Source: an uncultured Armatimonadota bacterium (lineage in GTDB: Bacteria; Armatimonadota; Fimbriimonadia; Fimbriimonadales; Fimbriimonadaceae). Taken from it: a stretch of 64,000 bases of DNA. Position numbers and translations under genes: made by a program. The first letter of the stretch is position 1. Every line of letters starts with the position of its first letter. The stretch lies in contig CAIUHP010000113.1 of assembly GCA_903899015.1 (NCBI GenBank), forward strand, positions 1-64,000, given 5' to 3'. The notes beneath the pieces were generated by a model, which was given only the letters and a program-made list of their open reading frames with translations, was not told the origin of the DNA and did no database searches. Below, in pieces: positions 39,823-43,235 of this stretch.

Positions 39823-41791
39823 AGGTCGAATCTAGCTTTCGAAGCTGAAGCGCAATTCCAAGGGCTCGCTTGCCTTCTGGAATGCCTTGGCCCGTAAATT
39901 CATCAAAGAGCCATTGATGTTCAAGAATCGATCCGACCGATTGAGCGATCGTCCTAGAGATGGTTTCATAAGAAACGGTCTTATCCGCAAGTACAGAAAC
40001 GTCTCGACGCACTGCCGGGTGACGACTGACTGAACTCAATTTAAGACTCGCGTTTCGAGATTCATACGCTTCCCTTGCTAAGATCTCAAACGCCACCGTT
40101 TCGACCGGCAGACCGCAGTCATGGGCAATGTCCGGGTGGAGCTGCCCGATAACACCGATCTTGGTTCCTGACGCAACGATTGTTGCTTGGCGAGTGGGAT
40201 GGAATCGTGCATCAAGAATCTCGGGAGGAGTTAACGAAATGGAGACGCCAACCGAAAGGGTGATCTCTTCGAGAGTGCCCTTCAGAGTAAAAAAGGATGC
40301 CGTACCGCTCGGCGTTAGGCTCCATCCTCCCGCTTCAATCGGTCCGCAGCTCAAGCCGCCAAGCCGAATCGTCTCCACGTACTTGCCTTTCTCGCCAGCA
40401 AAAACTCGACCAAGTTCAAAGACATGAATATCTTTCGCACCATTTCGACGGGCTGCATCGGCAAGCGAAGGTAGCAGTGAATTTCGAAGATAGGCCGTAT
40501 CGGGCGAAGCCGGAGTACGCGGCCCAAGGCGCTCTTCGGAAACTTCATCGAGGGGATGAATGTCTCGGAGCGAATGGCTAATCGTTTGACTCAGACCGGA
40601 TCGAAGACAAGCTTCTCTGAGCCAATCGGTCCACAACTCGAAACCTTGAGGGCCGCCCATCTTAGTTGTGCCTTCGAGGAGTTGTTCCGGAATAAGTTCG
40701 TACCCGTGAACACGCCCTAGTTCTTCAACTAAATCCTCTTCTCTAACGATGTCGGGACGCCAAGTCGGCGGCATGACCGTGAGAACATTTGCAGAATCGA
40801 TTGAAGCCTTGAATCCCAGTCGACTGAGGTAATGCTCCGCCTGCTCGGCCGTGATTGGCATTCCAAGCAATTTCGATGCGCGATCCGTTCTCAATGTCAG
40901 CGAACTACGTTCGATTTTGCCTGGATAGTGATCGATGACAGCGGTTGACGTCACACCAGGATCTGCTTGCTTCACGAGATCAACGCATCGGATTAAGGCT
41001 GCCACGACTCCATCTGGGTCGACGCTTCTTTCAAATCGATAGGACGCTTCGGTGCTTAGTCCCAACTGCTTTCGAGTCTTTCGAACACTTGTATTGAGAA
41101 AATTAGCTGACTCAAGAAGGACTGTAGTAGTGGTTTCGGAAACCTCCGAATCTGCCCCACCCATGACACCGGCAACTCCAACCGGTCGCTCGGCGTCGCA
41201 AATCATCATCTGCCCCGCTTGCAAGTTGTGCTCGACGCCGTTTAGAGTCGTAATCGTCTCATTTGGTTGCGCTTCGCGAACAACAATGCGGCCACCGGCC
41301 AATTTCTCAAAATCGTAAGCGTGTAGAGGCTGCCCCAATTCCAACATGACGTAGTTGGTGATGTCCACCATCAGACTAATCGGACGCATGCCAGCACGTC
41401 GCAGGCTCTGTTGCATCCAGTCTTCAGAACTCTTCCGCGAAACATTTGTAAGCATCAAGCAAGCAAAACGCTTGCACGCCTCGGTTTGAATCGAGACCGA
41501 AGTTTGTGGGAGCTCCAACCCTGGGTTTAGACCACTAAATCGCTCGGCAGCGCGAACGTACAGTTCAGTGGGTTTGGCGGCAGAGTCTTTGGCGAGGACT
41601 TCCCGTGCGAGCCCAAAAATGGAGAGTCCGTCTCCTCGATTGCTCATGACCTTGATGTCAAGAACGGGATGGTCTTCAACTTCTTCGATACCTTCCAATT
41701 CGAAACCCGCCATGGTGAGCAAGTCCCCAACTTCTTCCGCAGAAAGGGAGGTATCAACAAAACCAAGCAACATCGAGTAAGGGAACTTCAT
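39746..41791 (-). CDS. pheT: Phenylalanine-tRNA ligase beta subunit, lacking the OB domain
   Basis: Motifs of PheT in order: MKFPYSMLLGFVD, MAGFELEGIEEV, IKVMSNRGDGLSIFGLARE, the B3/B4 region (MVDITNYVMLELGQPLHAYDF and GVMGGADSEV), the synthetase-like catalytic-fold region, and the C-terminal anticodon-binding domain (SRHPAVRRDVSVLADK). The EMAP/OB domain that normally follows GIEEV (about 110 residues in E. coli PheT) is absent: VEDHPVLDIKVMSNR follows directly. 681 residues instead of about 790. pheS is not beside it; the 350 bases upstream are AT-rich. It charges tRNA(Phe) together with PheS encoded elsewhere. Confidence 0.93.
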   Translation of the reverse strand: MKFPYSMLLGFVDTSLSAEEVGDLLTMAGFELEGIEEVEDHPVLDIKVMSNRGDGLSIFGLAREVLAKDSAAKPTELYVRAAERFSGLNPGLELPQTSVSIQTEACKRFACLMLTNVSRKSSEDWMQQSLRRAGMRPISLMVDITNYVMLELGQPLHAYDFEKLAGGRIVVREAQPNETITTLNGVEHNLQAGQMMICDAERPVGVAGVMGGADSEVSETTTTVLLESANFLNTSVRKTRKQLGLSTEASYRFERSVDPDGVVAALIRCVDLVKQADPGVTSTAVIDHYPGKIERSSLTLRTDRASKLLGMPITAEQAEHYLSRLGFKASIDSANVLTVMPPTWRPDIVREEDLVEELGRVHGYELIPEQLLEGTTKMGGPQGFELWTDWLREACLRSGLSQTISHSLRDIHPLDEVSEERLGPRTPASPDTAYLRNSLLPSLADAARRNGAKDIHVFELGRVFAGEKGKYVETIRLGGLSCGPIEAGGWSLTPSGTASFFTLKGTLEEITLSVGVSISLTPPEILDARFHPTRQATIVASGTKIGVIGQLHPDIAHDCGLPVETVAFEILAREAYESRNASLKLSSVSRHPAVRRDVSVLADKTVSYETISRTIAQSVGSILEHQWLFDEFTGQGIPEGKRALGIALQLRKLDSTFTDEEANQVREIAVAALGKIGATTR

Positions 41792-42141
41792 TCGAACACT
41801 AATTGTATCCCGTGCAGCGTCTTGTAGACCGCTTGGAACAGTTTCAAATGATATTCGTCTAAGTCACAAAGACAAGAACTGCTATTGCAAATTGACAAAC
41901 TAAACAAGCTAAGTCGGTGTTGAGGTTTAAAGCTACTCTGATACGTTAAATGCTAAATATATTCATCTATTGGATTAGCTTGTAGATTATAGACAATTCG
42001 TGTATTCTATTAAGAATCCCTTAAGTTGACCTGATAACATTTCAGTCTCCTTATAGATTTTATTCCCCTAGAAAACCTCTGATCCTTTCCCCGTCCCAAG
42101 GAGAAACTGTAATCCGTAATAAACCTCTATTCCGTCGAATA
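41792..42141. other. AT-rich intergenic region between pheT and the three-repeat gene
   Basis: About 350 bases, clearly richer in A and T than the surroundings, especially 41870-42110. It should carry the divergent promoters for pheT and the plus-strand gene at 42142, but I found no convincing -35/-10 pair. An AAGGAG at about 42099 precedes no usable start codon. No RNA gene was recognised. Confidence 0.5.
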
Positions 42142-42903
42142 ATGCCCTTCTTAGAAGCTTTCGGAGAAAGAAAGCCCATGCTGGATTGGTCTCGTGATCC
42201 CCGATGTGTCGTTAAATATGGCACCTTAGTCTCTAGAATTAACGACGGATGGGATCCGGAAGCTGCTCTTACTCAAGCGGTTGAAAGAAAAGAGCGTAAG
42301 TACAGCCGCCCTCCCATCATCGTGGATGCTTTTGGCGAATCAAAGCCCGTCACTGAATGGAAAGATGACCCGCGTGTCACCGTGGGGATGAACGTGTTCA
42401 TTCGGAGAATCCAACATGGCTGGTCACCCGAGGCAGCCCTTACAACTCCGCTTTCGGCAAATCGAGGAAGAAAGGAACCGTCTGGACCGTTGTTCGAAGT
42501 ATTTGGCGAGTCAAAAACAATTCGAGAGTGGGCTCAGGATGAACGATGCACGGTCTCAGAAATGACGCTGCGCAAGAATCTCCAGTCAGGTATTCCCCTC
42601 CAGGATGCATTCCAGTTCCGACGTCGACCAGGTCGAAGTCTGAGCGCTGGTAAAGAAGACATTGGTCGAGAAGTAGACGACATCAAGACTGTTCTAAAAA
42701 TGATGTCGGATTCGGGTGAATTGTGGTTGTACGACACGGGAGGATCAAGACGCATTTCGTTGATCTACCAAGACATTCGCCACATCATCGCTGAAGAAGC
42801 CTTTGAAGAGATGCAGTCGCTGAATTACCTCTCGATGGTGTTTGAAACCGATACGATCAAGAACTTTGAGCTGAGCCCAGAAGGCACAGCTGCCGCCTCC
42901 TAG
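42142..42903 (+). CDS. Three-repeat protein, probably DNA-binding, unknown function
   Basis: The first 160 of 253 residues are three copies of a 40-residue unit (about 5-45, 62-102, 119-158) with consensus F/A-FGExK-x4-W-x2-D-x-R-C-x-V-x4-LxxRIxxGWxPExALT. Examples: EAFGERKPMLDW, DAFGESKPVTEW, EVFGESKTIREW. Each unit is predicted helix-turn-helix-sized. I recall this FGExKxxxEWxxDxRC pattern from phage and accessory-region proteins, but not from a named family. The C-terminal 85 residues (EVDDIKTVLKMMSD...) form a separate helical domain. Isolated gene behind an AT-rich leader, in a region of mixed composition. Confidence 0.75.
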   Translation: MPFLEAFGERKPMLDWSRDPRCVVKYGTLVSRINDGWDPEAALTQAVERKERKYSRPPIIVDAFGESKPVTEWKDDPRVTVGMNVFIRRIQHGWSPEAALTTPLSANRGRKEPSGPLFEVFGESKTIREWAQDERCTVSEMTLRKNLQSGIPLQDAFQFRRRPGRSLSAGKEDIGREVDDIKTVLKMMSDSGELWLYDTGGSRRISLIYQDIRHIIAEEAFEEMQSLNYLSMVFETDTIKNFELSPEGTAAAS

Positions 42904-42914
42904 GCTCCATGAGA

Positions 42915-43235
42915 TTACCGAGCAGCCTTTGGATACCACCAAAGGCTGTTGTCGGTAGGATTGACCACTAAAAATCCATCCTCAAGTAATGGCGAGCCAG
43001 CACCGTTTGCTCCGCTTGCCAGTAAGTTCCCCGCTCCAATCAGTTGCCGCACTGAGCTTAACTCGGGAGTGTCTATGGCTGTGCCTTCTATCATTGCTTT
43101 GACCGACCAAGGATCGGCGTGATGAATAGCAAATTTAACGGGTACACGCTCATTCAATTGCTTCCGACTTCCAGCCAAGCAAAAAGCCGACGAAATGAGT
43201 AAAAACGAGAGTCCGAAGGTGAGGCTTGCGCGCAT
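42915..43235 (-). CDS. Small exported protein of unknown function
   Basis: 106 residues: signal peptide (LTFGLSFLLISSAFCLAGS), then KFAIHHADPWSVKAMIEG and a C-terminal GFLVVNPTDNSLWWYPK. The HADPW and NPTDNSLWWYP motifs look like a small conserved module that may pack against a secretin or other envelope protein, but this is a guess. Converges on the three-repeat gene with an 11-base gap. Confidence 0.6.
   Translation of the reverse strand: MRASLTFGLSFLLISSAFCLAGSRKQLNERVPVKFAIHHADPWSVKAMIEGTAIDTPELSSVRQLIGAGNLLASGANGAGSPLLEDGFLVVNPTDNSLWWYPKAAR

Follow-up and report, generated by a model that had tools for sequence, protein, structure and literature searches.

A protein of three repeat units related to a phage HNH endonuclease module, with a probable conserved ATC/ATT start codon, in a Fimbriimonas-like bacterium

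The window analysed here is a stretch of 64,000 nucleotides from an uncultured Armatimonadota bacterium of the family Fimbriimonadaceae (assembly GCA_903899015.1, contig CAIUHP010000113.1, positions 1 to 64,000). It contains a gene for a protein with three repeat units. In the window genome and in three relatives (G018, G020 and G022), this gene is flanked by pheT on one side and by the same short gene and small membrane-protein gene on the other; the names pheT and membrane protein were assigned from sequence. The features of the gene are as follows.

42000–42008, plus strand: GTGTATTCT, a candidate extended −10 promoter element some 105 nt ahead of the start codon
42098–42103, plus strand: Shine-Dalgarno AAGGAG, 8 nt before the ATC
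42112–42114, plus strand: proposed start codon ATC (ATC, ATT and ATT in three orthologs), 30 bp ahead of the previously reported ATG
42112–42903, plus strand: full coding sequence, 263 aa plus stop
42151–42282, plus strand: repeat unit 1, from the repeat HMM (residues 14–57 of the 263-residue frame)
42322–42453, plus strand: repeat unit 2, from the repeat HMM (residues 71–114 of the same frame)
42493–42624, plus strand: repeat unit 3, from the repeat HMM (residues 128–171 of the same frame)
42661–42897, plus strand: C-terminal domain, residues 184–262, with the predicted order b-a-bbb-a-bb-a

An initial annotation, made from the letters of the window, had described three tandem repeats followed by a separate C-terminal domain, and both are present. 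Ungapped pairwise comparison of the units gave 21/46, 14/46 and 14/46 identities (z = 14.8, 9.2 and 9.8 against 2000 shuffles); the unit-versus-unit scores lie 9–15 standard deviations above the shuffle mean and were equalled by none of the shuffles. The spacing between units is exactly 57 residues, and the units are near-neutral in charge. The motifs described as common to all three are less uniform. The DxRC cysteine is found in units 1 and 3 but is replaced in unit 2, which has DPRV, and the GWxPExAL-like end claimed for every unit occurs in units 1 and 2 but not in unit 3. Across orthologs, unit 3 is the most conserved of the three, with 29 of 46 positions invariant.

The gene had been taken to begin at ATG 42142, which is probably wrong. 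The four orthologs, from the window genome, G018, G020 and G022, are all 263 residues long and align without gaps from an ATC or ATT, and this codon 1 is the only canonical or near-cognate codon common to all of them. An in-frame stop about five codons upstream in three orthologs confines the position of the start. The Shine-Dalgarno duplex energies are −6.3 to −9.3 kcal/mol with identical spacing in the four orthologs, and the 16S tail of the window genome carries the matching CACCTCCTT. The first in-frame ATG, GTG or TTG appears no earlier than codon 34 in G020 and codon 57 in G022. Between these two genomes, codons 11–36 show 17 synonymous and 3 non-synonymous codon differences, and unit 1 has been kept with mostly synonymous change. 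For comparison, 47 ORFs from this part of the contig that have a relative in the other genomes were examined, and the 16 that were flagged were sorted by eye. Those other than the repeat gene were short stretches near the aligned start, one low-complexity stretch and antisense frames; inspection by eye found no comparable pattern in any other ORF of this one contig region. The comparison of four orthologs, three of them from metagenome assemblies other than that of the window, strongly argues that translation starts at the ATC/ATT codon 1. The more distant homologs do not clearly share this start: G007 has ATG and G021 is ambiguous. In the G021 homolog (L034/L052, around L052:2947-2989), a strong GGAGG precedes an in-frame GTC by 9 nt and a TTG by 12 nt.

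Within the upstream region, GTGTANNCT is the sole well conserved block in the four orthologs, and GTGTATTCT may act as a promoter element. The upstream DNA was said to be AT-rich, and its composition bears this out (39% G+C in 41750–42249); the region looks like an ordinary intergenic leader. No Rfam match was found in the leader, and RNAalifold on the four sequences gave no convincing conserved structure. Coupling to an upstream ORF was rejected: inspection by eye showed short upstream ORFs in G018, G020 and G022, which share neither position nor frame, and showed none in the window genome. In the three leaders (L031, L032 and L033), the ends of these ORFs coincide with the Shine-Dalgarno region or fall just short of it, probably by chance.

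Structure prediction agreed with the suggestion that each unit has the size of a helix-turn-helix (HTH). Each unit is modelled as a beta-hairpin leading into three helices, an HTH-like arrangement, with a pLDDT of 96 for the single-unit model; the predictions were made from shallow alignments of 14 and 33 rows. Predicted viral proteins resemble the unit model with best TM values of 0.7–0.8, although so small a domain keeps the Foldseek E-values at 0.04 or above. They include HNH endonucleases, an HTH homing endonuclease and PVL ORF-50-like proteins. The structure search found no solved structure resembling the unit model. A PPR or alpha-solenoid array, built from two-helix repeats of ~35 residues, was rejected, as the PDB profile matches span 22 residues, with some 3 bits for each copy, and the model shows a hairpin and separate units instead. 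Helix 2 differs from unit to unit within the protein, and its positions tend to be invariant across species (19/27 versus 55/111 elsewhere, a borderline p = 0.056). A helix that is specific to its unit yet tends to be conserved would fit a protein whose units each read a separate sub-site. The whole-protein model has a pTM of 0.34, so the placement of the units relative to one another is not defined by it. The C-terminal domain is predicted with an AlphaFold2 pLDDT of 88–96 across most of its length. The order of its elements is winged-helix-like, and comparison of its fold gave weak matches (the best at E 0.07), several of them to winged-helix proteins.

A profile search with the repeat, proposed in the initial annotation, identified its closest kin. 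In PHROGs, three stretches match phrog_3377 (HNH endonuclease) at E 3.4e-11, and the match is confined to profile positions 101–190 of 196, its C-terminal half. Searches of Pfam, NCBIfam and PDB sequences gave nothing above cutoff. By sequence, the unit is kin to the C-terminal module that phages attach to HNH endonucleases, which it resembles in predicted fold as well. The phage enzymes carry an HNH part, whereas the window protein has three tandem units and a private C-terminal domain; Pfam detects no HNH, and the units, their linkers and the C-terminal domain account for all 263 residues. An HNH-type sequence is joined to the unit in Rhodococcus phage Peregrin gp61 and to two unit copies in the Nostoc plasmid protein WP_179075733.1, and a similar HNH-type sequence with two units occurs in a relative from the same bacterial family (L043). 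The HNH part of these proteins escapes Pfam, so their label rests on the PHROG description and the sequence pattern. In a Streptomyces protein, the unit is fused to a GntR regulator. With the consensus unit, tblastn gave matches in one phage and three plasmids only, and a scan of viral contigs with the full-length protein gave none. The PVL ORF-50-like family (PF07768) and PHROG 1065, phage proteins of unknown function, match the unit weakly in sequence, below the Pfam cutoff, and match its fold at the level of the single unit, but they differ from the window protein in architecture. An Lsr2-type DNA-binding domain was discarded, its Pfam E-value of 0.083 being below cutoff.

The interpretation we lean towards, by a little, is that the gene encodes a low-abundance nucleic-acid-binding regulator with three hairpin-HTH units and an AUC start under initiation factor IF3. 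Nucleic-acid binding itself is likely; because no solved structure of the unit was found, the case for it rests on kinship. Three contacts may fairly be supposed, since the modelled units are HTH-like and their kin are C-terminal modules of phage HNH endonucleases. The three units would contact three sub-sites via their second helices, and the C-terminal domain, with its winged-helix-like topology, would provide dimerisation or a further contact. Translation would start at the AUC behind the strong Shine-Dalgarno, IF3 would discriminate against this codon, and the protein would be scarce, its level following IF3 and translation status. In such a scheme, a vertically kept chromosomal gene of a Fimbriimonas-like bacterium would have turned a homing-endonuclease-type module into a scarce regulator, the regulatory role being suggested by these features together.

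Other explanations were weighed against this one. The protein could begin at the reported ATG 42142 (codon 11), with the upstream ATC/ATT a coincidence, and codon 11 is indeed ATG in the window genome and in G018. It is GTT in G020 and ATA in G022, however, and it has no Shine-Dalgarno, with −0.2 and −1.0 kcal/mol compared to −8.5 and −9.3 for codon 1. Residues 1, 5, 9 and 12 are invariant in the four species, and a start at codon 11 is improbable. We consider it less probable still that the gene is a piece of a phage or mobile-element protein, gained recently and lacking a host function. Presence is patchy, the C-terminal-domain architecture occurring in 6 of 20 genus genomes (the three-unit form in five and a two-unit form in the sixth). 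Conjugation-type genes (Replic_Relax and TraG-like), or restriction-type and other genes (an HSDR_N protein, NERD/UvrD), are found close to some of the other multi-unit proteins; the link of multi-repeat proteins to mobile elements raised by the initial annotation thus applies to some family members but not to the window protein. Against recent acquisition, the four species share the neighbours described above, and these are 47–68% identical, having diverged about as much as the repeat gene; the four species that share the syntenic locus are 52–71% identical. Coding G+C is ordinary, and change in unit 1 is predominantly synonymous. Neither the recent acquisition nor the isolation from any operon previously proposed is supported. 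With the same neighbours kept in four species, and a related locus in G007 where a two-unit homolog lies about 1.5 kb from a homolog of the same short gene, the comparison indicates that the gene is vertically inherited within the subclade and was not recently acquired. Synteny and purifying selection largely refute the recent-acquisition reading; an older gain in a common ancestor is possible.

The nature of the ligand is the other point of choice. The units could bind RNA or a protein partner instead of DNA, for instance in a post-transcriptional regulator, and their near-neutral charge and the lack of a related solved structure are compatible with this. Elsewhere, however, the unit is joined to HNH-type endonucleases and to a GntR regulator, partners that act on DNA, and an RNA- or protein-binding role appears unlikely, though less so than either alternative above. 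Between the two nucleic acids, DNA is the somewhat better supported ligand.

A short secreted-looking protein ending in FLVVNPTDNSLWWYPK is encoded at 42915–43235 on the minus strand of the window. It has no Pfam match, occurs in 8 of 20 genus genomes and is kept beside the repeat gene.

The proposed control of the regulator by its start codon has precedents in other bacteria. The GTC-started sigR of Streptomyces is repressed by IF3, and changing its start to a canonical one leaves the regulator unbalanced (PMC5472188). In Staphylococcus, infC, ccpN and cvfC1 start with AUA, AUA and AUU, and the non-canonical-start reporters tested gave about a tenth of AUG output in poor medium (PMC13009471). 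E. coli pcnB is described, in work cited there, as a second chromosomal AUU case (PMC13009471). Like the window gene, all five have a conserved non-canonical start behind a Shine-Dalgarno, and sigR and ccpN encode transcription regulators, a regulatory role being proposed for the window protein too. They differ from it in protein and lineage. In four orthologs, the window gene combines a conserved start other than ATG, GTG or TTG with a good Shine-Dalgarno. Given the precedents of sigR, ccpN, cvfC1 and pcnB, IF3-throttled translation would be the likeliest control, and we put it slightly above an even chance; output of the protein is probably held deliberately low. Within the genus, infC starts with ATA in eight and ATT in one of the nine genomes with a readable start, which sits two codons after an in-frame stop, and the usual IF3 autoregulation arrangement therefore appears to be present. 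Because of this ATA (ATT in one genome), standard gene finders would annotate infC of the genus from a later GTG or incorrectly; the loci are L059 (G000:C80:8943-9431, minus strand) and L087–L098.

Conserved non-canonical starts are known for few bacterial genes; gene finders, which accept no start other than ATG, GTG or TTG, overlook them. If the ATC/ATT start is true, the usual programs would lose unit 1, wholly or by half, in G020 and G022. The repeat proteins also offer a further case of a phage endonuclease module multiplied into arrays, and these may be natural modular nucleic-acid readers. Across 291 genomes from the phylum, the units were found in 21, in proteins of 1–11 units. It is conceivable, if doubtful, that the phylum's proteins of 2–11 units are modular sequence readers derived from the phage endonuclease module, in which every unit would recognise a short DNA word of its own and array length would set site length, with the window protein a three-word member kept scarce by its AUC start. 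Arrays of 8–11 tandem units with no other recognised domains are found at L036 (G033:C1:88184-90310), L018, L039, L045 and L008. On a plasmid of Streptomyces sp. NBC_00470 (L108:1711-3594), a protein annotated as Cse1/CasA (type I-E) carries a partial unit copy after its Cse1 match, and the next gene belongs to the TnpB family.
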